Part shown: positions 6,540 through 17,510 of the stretch, one piece after another | Layout of the letters: each line of letters starts with the position of its first letter | Numbering within the stretch: the first letter of the stretch is position 1 | Source of the DNA: Brachionus plicatilis | Lineage: Eukaryota > Rotifera > Eurotatoria > Ploima > Brachionidae | Length of the DNA: 50,134 nucleotides | Reading direction: 5' to 3' | Assembly (NCBI GenBank): GCA_010279815.1 | Contig: QEOQ01000238.1 | Coordinates: 970,552-1,020,685, forward strand | Notes under the pieces: generated by a model | Database searches by the model: none | What the model saw: the letters and a program-made list of their open reading frames with translations, nothing else | What the model was told of the DNA's origin: nothing | Made by a program: the position numbers and the translations under genes

Positions 6540-7600
6540 TGAGTTAGATCTGAAAGTCATCTTCTTTCGCTCAACACGATTAGCAAAAGCTCTAACTAGT
6601 AATAACCCTTTGCCTTGTAATTCCGGTAGTCTCTGGCAACGAGAAAATTTTTAAGTCCGCTGCTATGTCAGGATAATTGAGAGGCTCTGTAGTATTAAAA
6701 TTTGATACCTTGGGTTCCGTTACGGTTGTGAACCCCTATCCTTTGTAGTGGTAATGGCATTCGTGATTGCTTGATCATTTCAGTATTTATACAATATTTT
6801 TGGATTCTTGTTAGCTTTTTTCACTTAATTTTGTTCATATGTTAGTCGGATATTCTTTCAGAAAAGAAAGCATTGATTAATGAAGCCACTATGCGATAAT
6901 CATCAATTATATGTGGGAGCATTGCATTTTGAATTCTTTAAAGGACTTGAACTGCTGTTTAAATATTCCATTTATCACTTCTTTGACATAGCGACATTTT
7001 GCTACTAATCGTTTCTCATTAGCTTCCCTCCAGCTAAGCTGTTTTTGTTCATTTTTTAAACCTTAATTTTCGACATTTAAAAAATATAAGCATCAGAAAT
7101 AAATAGTATAATTTAAAACTTACATGTAGGAATTTTGCAGTTTAAACCATAAGCTGATTTTAGCATTGATAAACAATCTAAGAATTCACGGTCAAATATA
7201 GCCAAGTCACCTTTTTTTAATAGATCTCTTAGATGATTATCTTATTTCAATTCATGTTCCATAAGCGATGCGGCGTTATCAGTAGAAGCTTGATTACCAT
7301 AAGCATTAATTATTTTCCCATTTTAAGTTGTTATAACGAGCGGCTTAACGAGTGGCCTTTTTTTGTGTCCGCTATAAAGTTTTAGCTGAATAATAGTAGT
7401 AGATACCATCAGCAGTAATAGCAAGCTGATGTAATCCAAATCATCTTTTCTCTTTCATCTTTAAATTATCTTTTCTATCATAATATCTCATATAATGCTT
7501 TCTACACATAATATCTCCGACTTGAACTTGAGTTCCAAAAACAAGTTAATTCATTTGCTAACTCAACTGTTTTTATTTCTGATAACCTTTTTTTCCCAAT
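6540..7600 (-). pseudogene. DDE_Tnp_4-type transposase, decayed
   Basis: In order on the minus strand: an N-terminal segment around 7520-7460 (CRKHYMRYYDRKDNLKMKEK), then ADGIYYYYSAKT (first catalytic Asp), then YSGHKKRPLVKPLVITT and NGKIINAYGNQASTDNAASL. GDLAIFDREFLDCLSMLKSA follows, giving the second Asp in the DRxF motif. After a probable intron near 7083-7128 come NEQKQLSWREANEKRLVAKC, RYVKEVINGIFKQQFK and, one frame over, IIDDYRIVASLINAFF. These are the hallmark blocks of cnidarian/rotifer DDE_4 transposases. They are spread over several frames with internal stops, so it is inactive. The same family occurs in better shape at 42029-44284. Confidence 0.7.
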
Positions 7601-8402: not shown

Positions 8403-9083
8403 ATGCCTAAGCATGATGGCTACACATTTTGGCGCGAAAAGCCTAACGATTGTAAATACATTCTAGCACCGATGGTCGACGCATCTGAACTTCAATGGAG
8501 AATGCTTTCTAGAAAATATTCATCCTAATTGTGCTATACACCCATGATGAATGCGGGTGTATTTGTTAGAGATTCAACATATCGAGCAAAAAATTTTGTC
8601 ACATGTCCAAAAGACCGTCCTCTAATAGCCCAGTTTTGTTCTGATGAACCCGAGCTTTTTACTAAAGCTGCGGAAATGATTCAAGATAAATGCGATGCAG
8701 TTGATTTAAATCTTGGATGTCCACAAAACATCGCTCGTCGAGGCCATTATGGCGCTTTTTTACAGGACGAATGGGAACTCATCCATAAAATTTGTAATAA
8801 TTTAGAAAAAAATTAATTTTAATTTATAAGGTTTTAATTTTTAAGTGTCTAATGCAGTTGAAAATTTAAAAATACCAGAAACTGCCAAAATCAGGGTCTT
8901 TGATGATATTGGCAAGACAGTTGAATATGCCAAAATGGTAGAAAGCACCGGAATAGCTGTAAATTTGATTTTAAAATTGGAAATTTTTTAATTCTTTAAA
9001 GATTTTAACTGTGCATGGAAGAACACGGGAACAAAAAGGACCTAATACTGGTCTGACAAGTTGGGAGTACATAAGAGCAGTTA
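8403..9083 (+). pseudogene. DUS1-like tRNA-dihydrouridine synthase, nonsense-mutated and truncated
   Basis: Three exons join in phase: 8403-8793, 8846-8958 and 9002 to about 9083 (introns of 52 and 43 nt). The product aligns with the start of DUS1-family enzymes, which reduce U16/U17 in tRNA using FMN. Visible blocks are [62 protein letters not shown] (with the family's catalytic Cys), [27 protein letters not shown] and [13 protein letters not shown]. An in-frame TAA at 8526-8528 sits where relatives carry Gln just before LCYTP, so a single C-to-T change explains it. No exon for the C-terminal half is found after 9083. Splice sites and reading frame are otherwise intact, so loss looks recent. 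Confidence 0.8.
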
Positions 9084-9872: not shown

Positions 9873-10403
9873 TTATTTATTTTTAAAAAAATTGCATTCA
9901 AAATTTGACGCATTAAACGATGCTAATTGACAATCTGAATAGCGAACACAATGAAATAGGCAATCGAACTTCTTTGATTTAAAATGGCGAATAAAAATTA
10001 AATTATTCTTCATAGCTGATGATAAATTTGTGAATTTAAAAAAGCATTCGTTATTTGATTGACAAAACTTTTCAAAAAATTCACCTGTTAAATTTTGTAA
10101 ATTTATGTTGATCTCTTCTGGAACAGTGGTAGTTGTTCCAGAAGTTGTTGTTGTCGTGGTTGTTGCTGTCGTGGTTGTTGCTGTCGTGGTTGTTGCTGTC
10201 GTGGTTGTTGTTGTCGTGGTTGTTGCTGTCGTGGTTGTTGTTGTCGTGGTTGTTGCTGTCGTGGTTGTTGTTGTCGTGGTTGTTGTTGTTGTCGTTGAAC
10301 AACCGGCAAGATTATTACCATTACCATTAGTACCACATTTATTTGAATCTGATCCTTCGAATAGACAAAGAATTTGAAAAGCCAAGATATATACTAAAAT
10401 CAT
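9873..10403 (-). CDS. Secreted Thr-rich (mucin-like) protein with C-terminal PAN-like Cys domain
   Basis: Single-exon frame of 176 aa. Residues 1-17 (MILVYILAFQILCLFEG) form a clear signal peptide. A short Cys/Asn region follows, then about 51 residues of almost pure Thr with occasional Ala, encoded by 15-bp units. This is a likely O-glycosylation stalk. The C-terminal part has FCQSNNECFFKF, CLFHCVRYSDCQLASFNAS and a final CNFF. The spacing C-x3-C-x5-C with a C-x-F end resembles PAN/apple modules, though the domain is short. It is probably an extracellular-matrix or mucus component. A near-identical 5' copy lies at 16470-16833 beyond the LINE, and a degenerate third fragment lies at 17991-18085. 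Confidence 0.7.
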   Translation of the reverse strand: MILVYILAFQILCLFEGSDSNKCGTNGNGNNLAGCSTTTTTTTTTTTTTATTTTTTTTTATTTTTTTTTATTTTATTTTATTTTTTTSGTTTTVPEEININLQNLTGEFFEKFCQSNNECFFKFTNLSSAMKNNLIFIRHFKSKKFDCLFHCVRYSDCQLASFNASNFECNFFKNK

Positions 10404-10454
10404 TTTTTATTTTTTTTTAAAACAAGATTTGAATAAATCCTTTTCTTTTTCTTG

Positions 10455-10862
10455 ATTCTTTATTATAGTAAGCATTTTGTTTATAAAGCAATATTTGACA
10501 GAGAAAATTTTAAATTTTTAGCCCTTTAAAAAATTAATAAACTTAAATTTCAATTTTCAAAAGAGGAATCTGATTCCTTTTGTTTATCTAACAAAGTTTG
10601 ACGCATTAATAAAAATAAATAATTTTTTTTTTTTTAAAGCTATTTTTGAATCTTTTTTGATTCTTTTTTATAGTAAGCATTTTGTTTATAAAGCAATATT
10701 TGACAGAGAAAATTTTAAATTTTTAGCCCTTTAAAAAATTAATGAACTTAAATTTCAATTTTTAAAAGAGGAATCTGATTCCTTTTGTTTATCTAACAAA
10801 GTTTTACGCATTAATAAAAATAAATAATTTTTTTTTTTTAAAGCTATTTTTGATTTTTTTTT
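10455..10862. repeat. Tandem ~205-bp repeat, two copies
   Basis: AGCATTTTGTTTATAAAGCA starts at 10471 and again at 10676 (period 205). Each unit carries GAGGAATCTGATTCCTTTTG (a small dyad), a TATAAA box on the minus strand and a long T run. The equivalent array at 16885-17500 has three copies. Confidence 0.9.
10480..10485 (-). promoter_or_regulatory. TATA-like box upstream of the Thr-rich gene
   Basis: Minus-strand TATAAA (within GCTTTATAAACAAA) lies 77 bp upstream of the ATG at 10403. The same box is repeated in every ~205-bp unit further upstream, so the promoter itself appears to have been tandemly duplicated. Confidence 0.4.
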
Positions 10863-11069
10863 TATTTATTTTTTTTTATTTCAATGTGTTCAGAGCAGAC
10901 ATTAGTCTTTCATGCGAACATGGTGAACACACTCATTTATTAAAAATAAAAATAGAAAAATTAAATAAATTTTTAATATAAGTCAAACTGTTTTAATTTA
11001 TAAATTTAAATAAATAGTACAAAATAGAATGAAAAGAAGGAAAAGAAGATAGAGAAAGGTGCTTTGACA

Positions 11070-14000
11070 TTATTTTAGGGTATTATTTTTTTTGTATTTT
11101 ACATAAGTAAGAAAATTATAGATGTAATCTATGTCAAATTTGGGAAATATTTTAATAAACTCAATAAAGTGTAGATTTACATTATTAATTTTTCTTTGTC
11201 TAAAAAGAGACAAATTTAAATTTAGATCTTTCAGTGTAAAAGAGTTGACAAATTTAGAAAAAAAGAAGGAAAATGTTAATTCACCAAAAGAATTAAAACC
11301 TAGACTTCCTGGAGTATAGAATTTATTGCTGTTTCTTAAATTATATGGTTTGTTAAGTGATTCGTTCACAATAAGTTGATTTTTAAGTGGAAGAGGCGCT
11401 TCTGGGTTCTTTAAAATCTTATAAGAAAAACAGCAAAGCTTAATGATCAGCCTATGTTGAAACCCGTAAAGACCTAGAATTTCAAGATTATTATTTATTG
11501 TATTGAAATCATTAGGATAATTAACTTGGGCTTTAAAGTGAATCAATTTGAAAAGTGAAATATAATAAGAATTGGATAGAGATTGAATAGCTGGTTTGGA
11601 GAAATAGATGGTAAGTGATAAACAATAATCAAAGTGGGGCAAGATGAACGTTTTAAAAAATTGTATTTTTACTGCTTTTGAAAGAAAGAATAATTGCTTA
11701 ATTGAGTTTAGCTTTTTATTAATAGTAGCTTTTAGATTGTTAACGTGACTAGTAAAGTTTAATTTATTATCTATTATAACACCTAAAAGCTTGAATTCAG
11801 GTACAACCTCGATTTCGAATGATCTATAAGAAAATGATGCTGGTATTACTATGTTTTTTTTGTTATGGATAATCATTATTTTAGTTTTATCCCAGTTGAT
11901 ATCGAGACGATTAAACGAGCACCATTTGTACACTAGTTCTAAGCAATTTTTAAATTTTTCTATTAAATCCTTTAAATTTGAACTACAGAAATTGATAGTG
12001 GTATCATCAGCAAATATTTTACAGTTTATGCCGTGATTTTTAAGAAAAAAAGCTAGGTCATTTATGAAAATTAAAAAGAAAAGAGGACCTAAGACACTTC
12101 CCTGTGGAACTCCAAGGTCTATTTTTGAAAATTCAGAAAGAGTGCCACCGAAGGAAACCGCTTGTTTTCTTCCAGAGAAATAATTTTTGATAAGATCAAG
12201 AGCGTTTTCACTAAAACCAATTCTCTTTAATTTGCAAAGTAAGAGATTTGGGTCCACCAAGTCAAAAGCCTTGCGAAAGTCAATAAACAAGAGCAGTGTA
12301 ATATATCTTTTGTTACGTGATGCGTTTATTTCTGAAATAAGTTCATGCAAGGCCGTTTCACAGGAGTGATCTTCGCGGAATCCATACTGGCATGGAAAAA
12401 GAATTTTATTTGTGTTCAAGTATAGAGATAATTGTGATGCTATAATCTTTTCAAAAATTTTTGATATTACAGGAAGAACGGAGATTCCTCTGTAGTTGTT
12501 GATGATTTCGATTGGACCTTTATTTTTGTAAATAGCTGTTACTATTGCGCATTTCCATTCATCAGGTACTCTGCAATTAGTGATACAATCATTGATAAGT
12601 TCAGTTAACACTGGACCAAGAATTACTGCTGATTCTTTAAAGATTTTTACTGAAATATCTGAGATTCCAGGACCATTGTTGGGGTTCAAATTACTAATCA
12701 ATTTAACAACAGAATCGACCGATATTAAATGAAAATCAAAAGTTTTTCCTTTTAATTTACTAAAGGGAAACATGTTAGAAAGTTCGTCAAATGTTTCATT
12801 TATGGAAGTTAAACAGGTCATTAAATCAGATAATGAATCTGATTTTATATCGGTGAAAAATTGATTCAAAAGCTTGCTAATTTCTGAGGCCTCAGATGCG
12901 GAGTTATTATCTTTGATAATGAAGTTTGGAATGATACTGTTTTGCTTGTCAGACTTTAATTTTATTGTTGATCTATAGAATTCATAAAATTTTTTCGAAT
13001 TTTGAAAATCATTTAATTTTTTATCTTTGAAGTAAAGGATTAATTTTTGTTCGGTCAAAGTTTTTATTCGTTTTTTTGCTTCTACATAAGATAAATAATA
13101 AGAGCGATCATGTGTGTTTTTCCACGACTTATAAAAACCATCCCGTGTTTTAGAAAGAGAATTAATTTCATTATCTGACCATGGGCTAATAGAATTTTTA
13201 TTATCAATTTTAACTTTTTTAATTGGTGCAATTGAATCTACTATACTTAAAATTGAGTTCTTTAGGGAGTTCCATTTATCATTAGGTAGATCAAATGAAG
13301 ATAAAGAAAGAAAAGATTGAGATTTGAAGTCATGGCGAGAGATTTTTTCTGAGATTTTAGAAAGATTATTCTCAGAAAGACTTCTAACAGTTCTGTAAAC
13401 GGAGGTGCTTTTTATTGAGGAAATATCTAGTGTGATAACTAACATTCTATGATCACTTATAGAGTTATCAATGGATGAAGTCGATTTTATTAGATTTTGG
13501 TTATGCAGTACTAGATCTATCTGAGAAACACTTGTTATGAATTTATTTTCTTTCTGAAAAAATTTGGTTGTGACTCTAGTTGGACCTAAAACGAAGTTTT
13601 TAAGTCCATAACTTGAAAGAAAACATTTTAAGATTTCATTTTTTTTTAAACAATCTATATTAAAATCTCCAATAAGAAAAAGGGGATCTTCGATGTTTAT
13701 GGTTAAGAGGAAATTTCCAATTTTATCTAGATAATCACTATCATTAATATATCTGTTTGGGGCTTTATAGCATGAAAGAAAATTAAAGCATATTTTTTTT
13801 AAGTAAATTTGAAGATAAATACCTTCAATTGATGGTAAGATTTTTGTTTTCCTTATAGTGTATTCGTATCGAACATAGACGAGAACGCCTCCACCTTCTT
13901 CATTTTCTCTATCGAAACGTATGATATTGTAGAAGGAATGTTTAAGAGAGGATAAAGGATGGATAAAATCATTGAGAAATGTTTCATTGAGCATCACTAT

Positions 14001-14174
14001 ATCAAATATTCTTAAGTTAAGGACTGAGAATATTTGGTCTTTTTTATTAAAAAATCTGTTAACATTGAAATGGAGAATAGAAAAATTACCTGTCGCTTTA
14101 GTTACTTCTATAAGATCGTTAACAAAGTCGGAACTAATTAATCTTGATGATAGGTTTAATTTTTCTGTATCTAG
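11070..14174 (-). CDS. LINE ORF2: endonuclease plus reverse transcriptase (readthrough product)
   Basis: 1,034 codons from just after the UGA to the TAA at 11070-11072. The endonuclease starts at once: HFNVNRFFNK near codon 35 (first metal-binding Asn), MLNETFLND (Glu), LIGDFNID, and SDHRMLVITLD (catalytic His). The reverse transcriptase follows: GPGISDISVKIF, YGFREDHSCETAL, LLFIDFRKAFDLVD, GVPQGSVLGPLFF, CKIFADDTTINF (catalytic Asp pair) and FKLLGVIIDNKLNF, then a Cys-poor tail. The first AUG in the frame is at 13994 (codon 61), after the HFNVN motif. A product started there would lack the first endonuclease motif. That argues for translation as a fusion with the upstream ORF rather than separate initiation. 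Confidence 0.9.
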   Translation of the reverse strand, partial: LDTEKLNLSSRLISSDFVNDLIEVTKATGNFSILHFNVNRFFNKKDQIFSVLNLRIFDIVMLNETFLNDFIHPLSSLKHSFYNIIRFDRENEEGGGVLVYVRYEYTIRKTKILPSIEGIYLQIYLKKICFNFLSCYKAPNRYINDSDYLDKIGNFLLTINIEDPLFLIGDFNIDCLKKNEILKCFLSSYGLKNFVLGPTRVTTKFFQKENKFITSVSQIDLVLHNQNLIKSTSSIDNSISDHRMLVITLDISSIKSTSVYRTVRSLSENNLSKISEKISRHDFKSQSFLSLSSFDLPNDKWNSLKNSILSIVDSIAPIKKVKIDNKNSISPWSDNEINSLSKTRDGFYKSWKNTHDRSYYLSYVEAKKRIKTLTEQKLILYFKDKKLNDFQNSKKFYEFYRSTIKLKSDKQNSIIPNFIIKDNNSASEASEISKLLNQFFTDIKSDSLSDLMTCLTSINETFDELSNMFPFSKLKGKTFDFHLISVDSVVKLISNLNPNNGPGISDISVKIFKESAVILGPVLTELINDCITNCRVPDEWKCAIVTAIYKNKGPIEIINNYRGISVLPVISKIFEKIIASQLSLYLNTNKILFPCQYGFREDHSCETALHELISEINASRNKRYITLLLFIDFRKAFDLVDPNLLLCKLKRIGFSENALDLIKNYFSGRKQAVSFGGTLSEFSKIDLGVPQGSVLGPLFFLIFINDLAFFLKNHGINCKIFADDTTINFCSSNLKDLIEKFKNCLELVYKWCSFNRLDINWDKTKIMIIHNKKNIVIPASFSYRSFEIEVVPEFKLLGVIIDNKLNFTSHVNNLKATINKKLNSIKQLFFLSKAVKIQFFKTFILPHFDYCLSLTIYFSKPAIQSLSNSYYISLFKLIHFKAQVNYPNDFNTINNNLEILGLYGFQHRLIIKLCCFSYKILKNPEAPLPLKNQLIVNESLNKPYNLRNSNKFYTPGSLGFNSFGELTFSFFFSKFVNSFTLKDLNLNLSLFRQRKINNVNLHFIEFIKIFPKFDIDYIYNFLTYVKYKKNNTLK

Positions 14175-14177
14175 TCA
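14169..14177 (-). promoter_or_regulatory. Candidate UGA CUA G stop-codon readthrough site
   Basis: Reading minus: TCT TTA TGA CTA GAT. UGA followed by CUA, and especially CUAG, is the strongest known context for stop readthrough in alphaviruses and in several animal mRNAs (established knowledge). Both sides are in the same frame. Downstream there is no AUG for 60 codons, although conserved endonuclease sequence begins about 35 codons after the stop. Confidence 0.7.
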
Positions 14178-15731
14178 TAAAGAACCTGTAGTAAATAAAT
14201 TATCGATTCCTTTAATAGAGAGAAGACTTTTAGAGATAATTTCATGAAAAATAAGCTTACGAAAGGCATCTACTTGATCCTGTTTAAAGGTCAATTGGGC
14301 GCTATGGATATAATATCGAAAAAAAAGACAAATGAAAATACCACAGTCATAAAGGTTTGTCTGAATTGGAAAAGAAACATTAGAGTAACACCAGTTATCT
14401 ATGATCAGGTTAAGATCCTTAAGTATTAATGTTAAAAATTTGTTTACCTCCTGATAATAAGTGTTGCTGTTTATTCCTAGAGAGTCATATAAGATTATTG
14501 TTGATTTTGAGAAATCCAGAATTATTAGTCGCCAGTGATTCATAAAACAAGTGGGAATTATAAAAAAATTATAATTACTTAATTTATTGAGCTTTAATCT
14601 GCAATTTCCATTTTTGACATATAAAGAGAAAAGAGATGCAGAAAATGAAAAGAAATTTTTATCCGCAGGAGAAAAAGAAATAATAAGGTTAAAATAAAAA
14701 TCTATTATGTTGTCATTTACCCAATTTGTGTTGTTAAGTGATGATAAATCATGGAACGTTAAACTTGTGTTGAATCCTGTTACTGCTAAGTTAAAGTCAT
14801 CTTCCCAATTTGTTTTTGATTCCGAAATATCATTTTGAACTATCGTACAACCAGCGTTAACATTCCGGGCTCCTGAGAATGTGCGCTCAGATGTTTTGGT
14901 AGGGCTCAGGTTGATTACCGATTCTTTTACACAAGTAGAATCATCCAAAGTTATAATTGAACTTGTGGTGTCATTACTGAACAATTTTTCCTCAGTTAAG
15001 TTCATTTGTGGCGAAGATGGATGATCAACAGTGGTAATGTTGTATAAAGTTGTCCGCTTTTTTTCCCCAGTCATGTTTTTGTCGACTTCAGCTTTGGTCG
15101 TACTAGAAAGTTTACCGTCAGTAGCTGTAATAGGACTTTTTTTGACATATTTAGCCGCATTGTGATGCCTGGTCTCAGCTGTTGTATTCATGCTTTTGTT
15201 GATTACAGTTTTAGTCTGGCTGGGATGCTTTGACTTTGTTCCTGTTGTCTGTATCTGGTTGACTGCTATTTTGGTCGAACTGTCTTTAGCTTTAGCTGCA
15301 CCGGAACAACTGGAGTTAGCTGTTTTGGTGATTGTCCTATGAATTTTTGTTTTGGTCGCACTAGAGCTTCTGGACTCAAATCTTGTGGGCTTGCTCTTGT
15401 TGACTTTAGCTTTGGCCGTACTTGGATGTCTCGACTTAGTTTTTACAGACGGGTCCTGATTTAATTCCAAATCCCCCACTCTTGTTTGACTGGACCCAGT
15501 TGTTGTGGTTATTATCTTGAGGTCTTCAGCTTTCGGTAGATTTGCTTGTTTGGACTCAACTTTAGAAGACAAGGACTTGCTATTAATTAGAGGGTCATTC
15601 GATTGAAGTGAAGAAGACAAGTGCACATTTGATTGTTGAGATGTTGAAATAATCGCTAGATGTTGAATTGTTGCAATAGAGTTTGATTGTTGTGATAATT
15701 CTGTGAAATGATTTGGACTTAAAATTGATTG
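14175..15731 (-). CDS. LINE middle ORF: Ser/Thr/Lys-rich linker plus Ulp1/C48 cysteine peptidase
   Basis: 518 codons lie between the UAG at 15734-15732 and the UGA at 14177-14175. The first roughly 270 codons are low-complexity Ser/Thr/Lys/Gln, with no AUG until codon 181. The C-terminal part is a Ulp1/SENP-type peptidase. It has NNTNWVNDNIIDFYFNLI (the substrate-binding WLxD..I segment), then CFMNHWRLIILDF (catalytic His), IILYDSLG (catalytic Asp), and IQTNLYDCGIFICLFF (Gln, then catalytic Cys in DCG). The order His-Asp-Gln-Cys and the spacing fit an active enzyme. Possible roles are self-cleavage of the readthrough polyprotein or deSUMOylation of host or element proteins; the sequence does not decide. 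The same frame runs on into ORF2. Confidence 0.85.
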   Translation of the reverse strand, partial: QSILSPNHFTELSQQSNSIATIQHLAIISTSQQSNVHLSSSLQSNDPLINSKSLSSKVESKQANLPKAEDLKIITTTTGSSQTRVGDLELNQDPSVKTKSRHPSTAKAKVNKSKPTRFESRSSSATKTKIHRTITKTANSSCSGAAKAKDSSTKIAVNQIQTTGTKSKHPSQTKTVINKSMNTTAETRHHNAAKYVKKSPITATDGKLSSTTKAEVDKNMTGEKKRTTLYNITTVDHPSSPQMNLTEEKLFSNDTTSSIITLDDSTCVKESVINLSPTKTSERTFSGARNVNAGCTIVQNDISESKTNWEDDFNLAVTGFNTSLTFHDLSSLNNTNWVNDNIIDFYFNLIISFSPADKNFFSFSASLFSLYVKNGNCRLKLNKLSNYNFFIIPTCFMNHWRLIILDFSKSTIILYDSLGINSNTYYQEVNKFLTLILKDLNLIIDNWCYSNVSFPIQTNLYDCGIFICLFFRYYIHSAQLTFKQDQVDAFRKLIFHEIISKSLLSIKGIDNLFTTGSL

Positions 15732-15734
15732 CTA
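15726..15734 (-). promoter_or_regulatory. Candidate UAG CAA UCA stop-codon readthrough site
   Basis: Reading minus: ATA AAA TAG CAA TCA ATT. This matches the tobamovirus-type readthrough consensus UAG-CAR-YYA in all six downstream bases (established knowledge). The frame is identical before and after the stop, and the next 180 codons contain no AUG. Confidence 0.7.
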
Positions 15735-16388
15735 TTTTATCCTTTTCTCAATAATAATTCCATTTTTTATCCCATAATAGAAATTGCATTTTGGTTTGCA
15801 ATTTTTCAACTTTTCATTCATTAACTTTTTTTCATCATTTAATTTTTTACTGTGCATTCGTTGTGCTATTGTTAAATCAAGATTAATAGATATATTATTA
15901 TAATTTTTACTCTTCAAATTTTTGGCACATTTTAATACATTAAATTTATCCTCTTTATTACGTAATTTTACTAATACTGGACGGGTTCTGCTCTTACTTG
16001 TCGATTTGAAACGAACCACTTTTTCAATTACATTCAGATCAGTACCAATATCCTTAAAAATATTTTTTATGAACTCACTATCGTTCTCTTGGTCTTCCAG
16101 TCCAAAAATTATCAAATTTTTTTCTCGTTTCTGAATATCTTCATTTTCAGCTGAAACCGCGTTGAGTATGTTTGCTTCCGGCTCTTGCATAGCAACTTTA
16201 TCCCCAGGAGTCTTGCTGTCAAAGAAAGAGGAAAATAATGGTTCTTTTGAGGTTTCATTATCAGATTTTTTAATCAGTCTTGAAACAATTTCCTCTAAAT
16301 CATTTACTCTTTTTAGTAAGGTGGAGTTGGTACTTTCCAAAACTGAAATACGATCAAGGGCAGCATCATGCATTACTTTGTTAACCAT
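15732..16388 (-). CDS. LINE ORF1 protein (coiled coil plus RRM-like domain)
   Basis: 218 aa from the ATG at 16388. A frame extension to 16409 would need a GTG start, and a TAA lies just upstream, so 16388 is preferred. Residues about 8-45 (LDRISVLESTNSTLLKRVND and on) have a heptad pattern consistent with trimer-forming coiled coil. The second half has EKNLIIFGLEDQEND, VVRFKSTSKSRTRPVLVKLR and NISINLDLTIAQR. This is the RRM-like plus C-terminal layout of LINE ORF1 nucleic-acid chaperones (NLIIFGL, RPVLVKF, DLTxxQR blocks). It ends IIIEKRIK then TAG. It should bind element RNA and form the RNP. Confidence 0.85.
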   Translation of the reverse strand: MVNKVMHDAALDRISVLESTNSTLLKRVNDLEEIVSRLIKKSDNETSKEPLFSSFFDSKTPGDKVAMQEPEANILNAVSAENEDIQKREKNLIIFGLEDQENDSEFIKNIFKDIGTDLNVIEKVVRFKSTSKSRTRPVLVKLRNKEDKFNVLKCAKNLKSKNYNNISINLDLTIAQRMHSKKLNDEKKLMNEKLKNCKPKCNFYYGIKNGIIIEKRIK

Positions 16389-16452
16389 TTTACTTTCTCT
16401 CTTGAACACTATAGTATTGGCTTACGTGTGCTTTTTTCAAATTTTTCAAATT

Positions 16453-16833
16453 TCAAATTTCAAATGATAAATTTGTGAATTTAAAAAAGCATTCGTTATT
16501 TGATTGACAAAACTTTTCAAAAAATTCACCTGTTAAATTTTGTAAATTTATGTTGATCTCTTCTGGAACAGTGGTAGTTGTTCCAGAAGTTGTTGTTGTC
16601 GTGGTTGTTGCTGTCGTGGTTGTTGCTGTCGTGGTTGTTGCTGTCGTGGTTGTTGTTGTCGTGGTTGTTGCTGTCGTGGTTGTTGTTGTCGTGGTTGTTG
16701 TTGTCGTGGTTGTTGTTGTTGTCGTTGAACAACCGGCAAGATTATTACCATTACCATTAGTACCACATTTATTTGAATCTGATCCTTCGAATAGACAAAG
16801 AATTTGAAAAGCCAAGATATATACTAAAATCAT
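16453..16833 (-). pseudogene. Second copy of the Thr-rich secreted gene, cut by the LINE end
   Basis: Starts at ATG 16833 with the same signal peptide as the gene at 10403 and a Thr run of about 46 residues. It matches the first copy up to CFFKFTNLS. It then reads three residues of LINE leader (FEI) and stops, so the C-terminal Cys domain is lost. Its promoter repeats (three units) are intact, so it could still be transcribed toward the LINE 5' end. Confidence 0.85.
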
Positions 16834-17510
16834 TTTTTATTTTTTTTTAAAACAAGATTTGAATAAATCCTTTTCTTTTTCTTGATTCTTTATTATAGTA
16901 AGCATTTTGTTTATAAAGCAATATTTGACAGAGAAAATTTTAAATTTTTAGCCCTTTAAAAAATTAATAAACTTAAATTTCAATTTTCAAAAGAGGAATC
17001 TGATTCCTTTTGTTTATCTAACAAAGTTTGACGCATTAATAAAAATAAATAATTTTTTTTTTTTTAAAGCTATTTTTAAATCTTTTTTGATTCTTTTTTA
17101 TAGTAAGCATTTTGTTTATAAAGCAATATTTGACAGAGAAAATTTTAAATTTTTAGCCCTTTAAAAAATTAATAAACTTAAATTTCAATTTTCAAAAGAG
17201 GAATCTGATTCCTTTTGTTTATCTAACAAAGTTTGACGCATTAATAAAAATAAATAAATTTTTTTTTTTTTAAAGCTATTTTTAAATCTTTTTTGATTCT
17301 TTTTTATAGTAAGCATTTTGTTTATAAAGCAATATTTGACAGAGAAAATTTTAAATTTTTAGCCCTTTAAAAAATTAATAAACTTAAATTTCAATTTTTA
17401 AAAGAGGAATCTGATTCCTTTTGTTTATCTAACAAAGTTTTACTCATTAATAAAAATAAATAATTTTTTTTTTTTAAAGCTATTTTTGATTTTTTTTTTA
17501 TTTATTTTTT
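16464..17510. repeat. Direct repeat A' flanking the LINE (5' side of the element)
   Basis: Second copy of 10019-10874. It is longer because it has one extra ~206-bp unit and lacks one 15-bp Thr unit. That arithmetic (856 + 206 - 15 = 1047) accounts exactly for the length difference. The left edge is sharp: shared ATGATAAATTTGTG is preceded by LINE sequence here and by the rest of the gene at 10019. Confidence 0.85.
16885..17505. repeat. Tandem ~206-bp repeat, three copies
   Basis: AGCATTTTGTTTATAAAGCA starts at 16901, 17106 and 17312 (periods 205 and 206). The last unit shares AATTTTTAAAAGAGG and AAAGTTTTAC with the last unit of the two-copy array, so the extra copy is an internal one. Confidence 0.9.

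Follow-up and report, generated by a model that had tools for sequence, protein, structure and literature searches.

Our analysis of a 50,134-nucleotide stretch of the genome of the rotifer Brachionus plicatilis (assembly GCA_010279815.1, contig QEOQ01000238.1, positions 970,552 to 1,020,685; here referred to as the window) revealed a long interspersed nuclear element (LINE) of the apurinic/apyrimidinic endonuclease (APE) type with a gag-pro-pol-like layout, the three proteins of which are quite probably produced by programmed readthrough at two different leaky stop codons. In the proposed scheme, ribosomes would start at the AUG of the first open reading frame (ORF1) and mostly halt at a UAG codon, which would leave an excess of the predicted RNA-binding ORF1 protein. 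A fraction would pass this UAG owing to the CAAUCA sequence downstream and thereby add a SENP-type protease, and a fraction of those would also pass a UGA codon owing to the downstream CUAG, yielding a fusion of ORF1, protease, endonuclease and reverse transcriptase (ORF1-protease-EN-RT). The expected product ladder is ORF1 > ORF1-protease > ORF1-protease-EN-RT. We infer the readthrough, its efficiency and the product ratio from the sequence of one genome and from LINE families of one clade, on which the whole analysis is based.

Three proteins in one reading frame with two internal stops

The LINE copy occupies positions 10853..16463 of the window on the minus strand, on which all of its parts are read. 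Both borders abut a flanking direct repeat, and the form of the 3′ end (TTGAAATA at ~10877, then an A-rich tail whose end is not sharp) is common to its relatives. The interval 10875-16463 given in the first-pass annotation, which left the strand unstated, closely matches the element. A short 5′ untranslated leader (16389..16463, its 5′ border set by the repeat alignment) precedes the ATG of ORF1 at 16388. ORF1 (15732..16388) ends with the TAG codon at 15734-15732, which together with the following bases forms the context UAG CAA UCA (15726..15734; type I, CARYYA). The middle ORF (14175..15731), comprising a low-complexity linker and a Ulp1/SENP-type cysteine protease, ends with the TGA codon at 14177-14175, followed by CTAG AT (stop 2 with its context UGA CUAG, 14171..14177). 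ORF2 (11070..14174) encodes an APE-type endonuclease (amino acids 35-242) and a reverse transcriptase (amino acids 553-801) and terminates with the TAA at 11072-11070.

All three ORFs lie in one register. Our recount from the ORF1 ATG gave 1,773 codons, the terminal stop counted, with two internal stops, and both stop contexts were read as they had been reported from the letters alone. The earlier reading had also described AUG-free stretches of 180 and 60 codons behind the stops; indeed, in-frame AUGs first occur at codon 181 when counted from stop 1 and at codon 61 when counted from stop 2. The endonuclease motif LHFNVN begins at ORF2 codon 34.

The assignment of the middle ORF to a Ulp1 protease and of ORF2 to EN-RT was borne out by Pfam. 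ORF2 matched Exo_endo_phos and then RVT_1 within a single ORF, the arrangement of an APE-type LINE, and the middle ORF matched Peptidase_C48/Ulp1 (14235..14723; E value of 4e-12), which places it in peptidase family C48. Its residues His399, Asp416, Gln457 and Cys463, which we take to be those of the Ulp1/SENP catalytic site, do not vary among seven aligned rows, and the protease of a related family, L056, matched the structures of SENP5, SENP1 and Ulp1 by sequence (SENP5 at an E value of 6e-16). The protease may either trim the polyprotein or act on SUMO/ubiquitin-like modifiers of the host. ORF1 had no match in the Pfam search; a profile of 15 ORF1s matched coiled coils and, weakly, the LINE-1 ORF1p structures 2w7a/2yko (E values of 0.02-0.03). 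ORF1 is thus predicted from weak profile matches to be an RNA-binding protein of the LINE-1 ORF1p type, with a coiled coil and an RNA recognition motif-like domain. A protein database search placed the ORF2 relatives P0001 and P0002 on short metagenome contigs, and a single scan found no relatives of the element in viral contigs.

Stop 2 is shared by six protease-bearing families

The window belongs to contig C29 of a 102.9-Mb genome in 173 contigs, which was searched for relatives. The middle ORF was found in at least 12 places, eight of which contained a readable ORF2 after the protease (window, L046, L049, L050, L053, L054, L055 and L056). Six families were counted, namely, the window, L049, L050, L054, L055 and L056; L053 represents the L056 family once more (99%), and L046 was left out of the six as a decayed member of the window family. 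L047 was not scored, its junction being missing or degenerate, nor were the ORF2 places L058-L062, of which three had an ORF2 start and no upstream protease or ORF1 match in the stretch read, and two (L061, L062) had no match.

Protease and ORF2 lie in one frame at all eight readable loci and hence in 6/6 families. The junction between them reads UGA CUA in all six families and UGA CUAG in five: the bases after TGA are CTAGAT in the window, CTAGTC in L049, CTATCT in L050, CTAGAA in both L054 and L055, and CTAGCA in L056. The second copies L053 and L071 (L055 family) also carry TGA CTAG, with TGA CTAGAA in the 121 bases read of L071. Pairwise ORF2 identity among the six families is 34-55%, with L054 compared over the endonuclease part only (34-38%); the reverse transcriptase part of L054 is 47% identical to that of the window. 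The residue that follows the conserved Leu at the junction varies (D, V, S, E, E and A), and CTA accounts for 85 of the 560 Leu codons in the ORF2s of five of the six families. This divergence argues for maintenance of UGA CUA(G).

The first-pass annotation had judged the occurrence of both motifs at the two junctions unlikely by chance, and the background frequencies agree. In a 182-kb sample (window plus L046-L062, both strands, every phase), CTAG followed 16 of 7,422 TGAs, and 6 of those 16 were the LINE junctions themselves; CTA followed 56/7,422. The sequence CAATCA followed 3 of 4,048 TAGs, and two of these three were junction 1 of the window and of L054. As described in the available text of PMC4132726, UGA CUAG confers efficient readthrough in HEK-293T cells, CUAG is most effective with UGA, and its effect is reduced when UGA is changed to UAA or UAG; CARYYA is about equally effective with UAG or UGA. 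The pairing of UAG with CAAUCA and of UGA with CUAG fits readthrough because each motif stands with a suitable stop.

The segments between stop 2 and the endonuclease motif span 27-45 codons each, 202 in total, and frame 0 is open throughout in 6/6 families, with no stop, whereas shuffles predicted 14.2 (the six shuffle fractions multiply to 2e-7); in the other two frames, 11 of the 12 readings contain stops. Five of the six families have no in-frame AUG ahead of the endonuclease motif, which in L050 was identified by eye. These features bear on the possibility that translation of the protease ORF and of ORF2 has its own start, through termination-reinitiation or at a non-AUG codon close to the stop, as in SART1 and as proposed for LINE-1. 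Reinitiation is a described LINE strategy (PMC5972666, in the portion available), L049 carries two AUGs shortly behind stop 2 (codons 7 and 21), and an AUG stands upstream of the protease domain at codon 181 in the window and at codon 41 in L054, from which reinitiation would still yield the protease. However, a separate start lacks an AUG before the endonuclease motif in 5/6 families and requires no shared frame, yet the frame is shared in all six, and it leaves unexplained both the CUA(G) right after UGA and the leaders that are open from their first codon. We therefore regard a separate start as rather unlikely.

The same leaders speak to the idea of an intron that spans stop 2 and is removed by splicing, an assumption built into public gene models of close copies. 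In two such models from B. plicatilis, the proteins P0042 and P0043, the protease continues directly into the endonuclease and the junction is skipped. P0042, which is 99% identical to the L056 ORF2 over 448 amino acids, omits everything between a point ~30 codons short of the protease end and roughly codon 20 of ORF2, although the leader that it skips is open in frame 0 in 6/6 families, and a spliced intron would vanish at the next round of retrotransposition. Splicing is in our view barely credible, and the skipping of UGA CUAG in P0042 and P0043 is likely an annotation artefact of a gene finder that avoids the stop.

Other stops of these elements and their relatives served as internal controls. 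Terminal ORF2 stops are TAA followed by T or A in 5/5 readable cases (window, L049, L050, L055 and L056, the stop of L055 being taken after one internal TAA). Protease loci with no ORF2 match in the stretch read all lack CTAG: L052 has TGA CAAC, L051 has TAG ACAA and L057 has TGA TTTA; the latter two loci are only distantly related and may be ordinary genes. Likewise, L072 and L073, members of the L055 family with no ORF2 behind the stop, read TGA TTAG and then continue into a stretch resembling the L055 3′ end. The protease P0044, from a metagenome, shares 39% identity with the middle ORF of L054 across 240 aligned positions and ends within a few residues of the same point, which is consistent with a stop at that place in another lineage; the comparison concerns the end point and not the identity of the codon.

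An alternative genetic code was rejected, since UAA, UAG and UGA all serve as stops at these junctions and ends.

As separate observations, L072 and L073 resemble half-LINEs that consist of a protease end and an L055-like 3′ end without ORF2, and they are 92% identical to each other over 273 columns. The L052 locus, a protease ORF of 341 codons that shares 76% identity with L055 across 568 columns, is perhaps another half-LINE or a gene.

Stop 1 recurs in a diverged family

The L054 family reproduces the full arrangement of the window: an ORF1 of 235 codons, TAG CAATCA with nine bases identical to the window junction, a 329-codon protease ORF and TGA CTAG, all in a single frame. In the window, 336 codons separate stop 1 from the protease domain and contain no frame-0 stop, compared with 21 and 33 stops in the other frames, and the fraction of 2,000 dinucleotide shuffles that was stop free over these codons was 0.000. 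For L054, the 40 codons that separate stop 1 from the first AUG are free of stops, as were 1.3% of the shuffles. Of the two stops, whose conservation in relatives the first-pass annotation had proposed as a check, stop 2 was conserved; conservation of stop 1 was weaker, with the exact context in L054 only. Among the six families, the two-stop design first described for the window was seen in L054 as well.

Several observations weigh against programmed readthrough at these stops. The two-stop layout is present in only 2/6 families because stop 1 is missing from L050 and L056, in which one frame of 546 and 601 codons, respectively, spans ORF1 and protease, L055 has the two apparently fused, with two stops further upstream inside ORF1, and in the damaged L049 the ORF1 part terminates at TGA ATCAAA in a frame that differs from that of the protease, probably through a frameshift. 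At junction 2, L050 has CTAT instead of CTAG, and L046, the sole other copy of the window family found with a readable junction 2, reads TAA TGA CTTG with broken frames. The protease of L049 contains an internal TAA, and in L053, L054 and L055 the ORF2 frame is broken at a later point; protease frame and ORF2 are intact in the window, L050 and L056. The six families are not independent samples, since they form one clade (100/100 versus four distant rows), which includes three metagenome relatives. Finally, RNA structure 3′ of both stops gave no consistent signal in 100-base z-scores. The values after stop 2 were -1.6 in the window, -0.8 in L049, -0.5 in L050, -1.1 in L054, 0.4 in L055 and -3.1 in L056, and those after stop 1 were 0.6 in the window and 0.8 in L054 (controls: mean, 0.07; standard deviation, 1.1; minimum, -2.5). 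A structural stimulator is not claimed because these scores are inconsistent. Taken together, stop 2 is strongly supported as a readthrough stop by the sequence comparisons, and stop 1 is moderately supported, by a good case that rests on two families.

The window LINE is a recent insertion

The element is flanked by a direct repeat of ~0.85 kb, the 5′ copy of which lies at 16464..17305 and the 3′ copy at 10019..10874, both on the minus strand; the first bases of the 3′ copy overlap the A-rich tail. In the alignment of the two copies, 831 of 858 columns are identical, and the others comprise 9 mismatches and 18 gaps. The portion of the repeat that belongs to the gene is identical in both copies except for one 15-base repeat unit, and the other differences are confined to 205-base repeats and the A-rich start. 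Within the 205-base repeats the register is ambiguous, as the same right start can also be aligned with a different left unit (98.6%, 429 columns). The repeat is unusually long and consists of flanking DNA rather than element ends; an A-rich 3′ tail, a direct repeat at both ends and no long terminal repeats (LTRs) are again as in APE-type LINEs.

Because a near-identical direct repeat adjoins the element at both ends, we take this copy to be a recent insertion, which therefore had little time for decay of its frames. A recent insertion with intact frames and protease residues supports readthrough and bears on the rival view that the stops are ordinary nonsense mutations in a dead copy. Decayed copies (L046 and L047) do exist in the same genome, and no second copy bearing stop 1 was found for the window or L054 family in the genome search, the counts of which are lower bounds. 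Nevertheless, the element has just two internal stops in 1,773 codons, precisely at the domain borders, its protease residues are conserved and its flanking repeats are near-identical. The occurrence of the same stop 2 with CUA in families that are only 34-55% identical contradicts decay for stop 2. Decay is accordingly a very unlikely explanation of the two stops.

The flanks and ends showed several further features. A Thr-rich, secreted-looking gene (window positions 9873-10406 and 16484-16836) lies behind tandem 205-base repeats (10406-10864 and 16836-17500), and its 5′ part, contained in the 5′ repeat copy, is duplicated across the LINE, on its other side. The L056 element (with L074 and L075) is flanked by a target duplication of ~3.3 kb that is 98-100% identical in the compared stretches, with ~1.4 kb of the left copy unread. 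The duplications of ~0.85 kb in the window and ~3.3 kb at L056 reach both element ends within some 20 bases, and these LINEs seem to duplicate host DNA, gene parts included, upon insertion. At L054, a 191-base repeat (>99% identity; oriented positions 1355-1545 versus 7055-7245) ends near the 5′ border of the element, as does a 277-base repeat at L055 (>99% identity; 1314-1590 versus 8704-8980). The left flank of L054 consists of N and that of L055 does not continue, and these repeats are partial, short of a full target duplication. No flanking repeat was seen at L050 and L049 in the 10 kb examined. The 3′ ends of five families (window, 10877-10940; L049, L050, L055 and L056) all consist of AATAAATG, a short hairpin and then TTGAA. 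By eye, the stem sequence differs among the five families, yet it pairs in each, and the structure is likely the hairpin recognized by the reverse transcriptase. The 5′ end of the window LINE starts with TTGAAAT repeats that resemble its own 3′ end.

Same-frame stops in other LINEs of this genome

ORF1 was found at 46 places in the genome, 30 of which were read (L004-L033): the window, the fragment L005 and 28 others. In 10 of these 28, ORF2 follows in the ORF1 frame after one stop, and because of this recurrence the same-frame stop layout is a repeated design in this genome. The stops are TAA T in L006 (TAA TAT), TGA CCA in L007, TGA T in L008 (TGA TTA), TGA A in L009 (TGA AGT), TAA CTAG in L010, TAG CAATCA in L018, TAG CAAATA in L020, TGA CTGG in L021 and TAG CTAT in both L028 and L031, with C directly after the stop in seven of the ten. 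Pfam endonuclease domains lie behind the stop in 10/10, those of L018, L028 and L031 being under the curated cut-off. AUGs stand ahead of the endonuclease in L018, L020 and L028, and L018 and L020 have additional stops or frame breaks. L026 has the same layout (TGA CGAG) on the basis of a weak tblastn match only. Among the ten, L006-L009 have ORF1 and ORF2 in the same frame, one stop and no AUG before the endonuclease motif, and they carry no known readthrough motif, so that a same-frame stop alone is no proof of this class of signal.

In seven LINEs (L011, L012, L013, L015, L016, L025 and L029), ORF1 is accompanied by a long +1 frame that has an AUG close to its beginning; domains in this frame were supported by Pfam in L011 only and by weak tblastn matches in L013 and L029. 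The remaining ten (L014, L017, L019, L022, L023, L024, L027, L030, L032 and L033) were not scorable, L032 being part of the L050 element. Eight further places were read, seven of which are +1 (L064 is broken); in the eighth, L070, ORF2 is in frame behind TAG CAACAA, and an AUG follows soon. As a side observation, the next long frame in the +1 register overlaps ORF1 in L063-L069, L011, L013, L016, L025 and L029, and it may be reached by frameshifting or by a separate start.

Since protease-free LINEs share the same-frame stop layout, programmed readthrough would be a common LINE strategy in this animal. We lean towards a general picture in which the protease-bearing lineage would be decoded in the manner of a gag-pro-pol virus, with one AUG, one frame, two classes of readthrough stop in series and a three-step product ladder, and in which readthrough would be common among the LINEs of this genome, in parallel to reinitiation and frame overlap.

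Comparison with known systems

Reinitiation is the main known way in which LINEs keep polymerase output below that of ORF1 protein. If the proposed decoding is true, the use of two textbook leaky stops would give LINEs a mechanistic link to retroviruses and RNA viruses, the elements would provide natural readthrough cassettes within an animal genome, and it would be explained why gene finders break or mis-splice such elements. Among the matches listed from open-licence PubMed Central full text, with subscription journals and preprints outside this scope, no LINE with stop codon readthrough is described, consistent with the first-pass annotation, to which no such LINE was known.

With regard to the signals, UAG CAAUCA fits the type I consensus CARYYA and UGA CUAG matches type II exactly. 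In the available text of PMC4132726 and PMC3542737, type I (UAG CARYYA) is described from tobamo- and pomoviruses, and type II (UGA CUA(G)) from alphaviruses and the vertebrate genes OPRL1, OPRK1, AQP4 and MAPK10. The known cases are thus RNA viruses and host genes, whereas the window LINE has both classes serially in one frame, with readthrough predicted.

Other LINEs with two ORFs, such as LINE-1 and SART1, have a similar order, an ORF1 apparently of the LINE-1 ORF1p type and then EN-RT. In the portion available of PMC5972666, reinitiation is reported for SART1 and proposed for LINE-1, and reinitiation and 2A are named as LINE strategies; HeT-A uses frameshifting (PMC5009743, in part). In contrast, ORF2 of the window lies in the ORF1 frame with no nearby AUG. 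A Ulp1-like cysteine protease upstream of the reverse transcriptase is also found in the NeSL/Utopia non-LTR elements (PMC4640811, in the text available). Utopia generally encodes one protein with a restriction-like endonuclease, whereas the window LINE is of the APE type, with a separate LINE-1-like ORF1 and domains parted by stops. Membership in NeSL/Utopia was rejected, as ORF2 opens with an Exo_endo_phos domain of the APE type and stops separate the three frames.

The gag-stop-pol arrangement of retroviruses and LTR elements (murine leukemia virus [MuLV] with UAG, Candida Tca2 with UGA; available parts of PMC5009743 and PMC2194720) likewise joins a structural protein and a polymerase in one frame across one stop. 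The Tca2 junction alone did not direct readthrough in yeast (PMC2194720). Neither MuLV nor Tca2 is a LINE, and MuLV depends on a 3′ pseudoknot, whereas no consistent 3′ structure was found in the window LINE, which differs from both in having two stops with a protease ORF between them.

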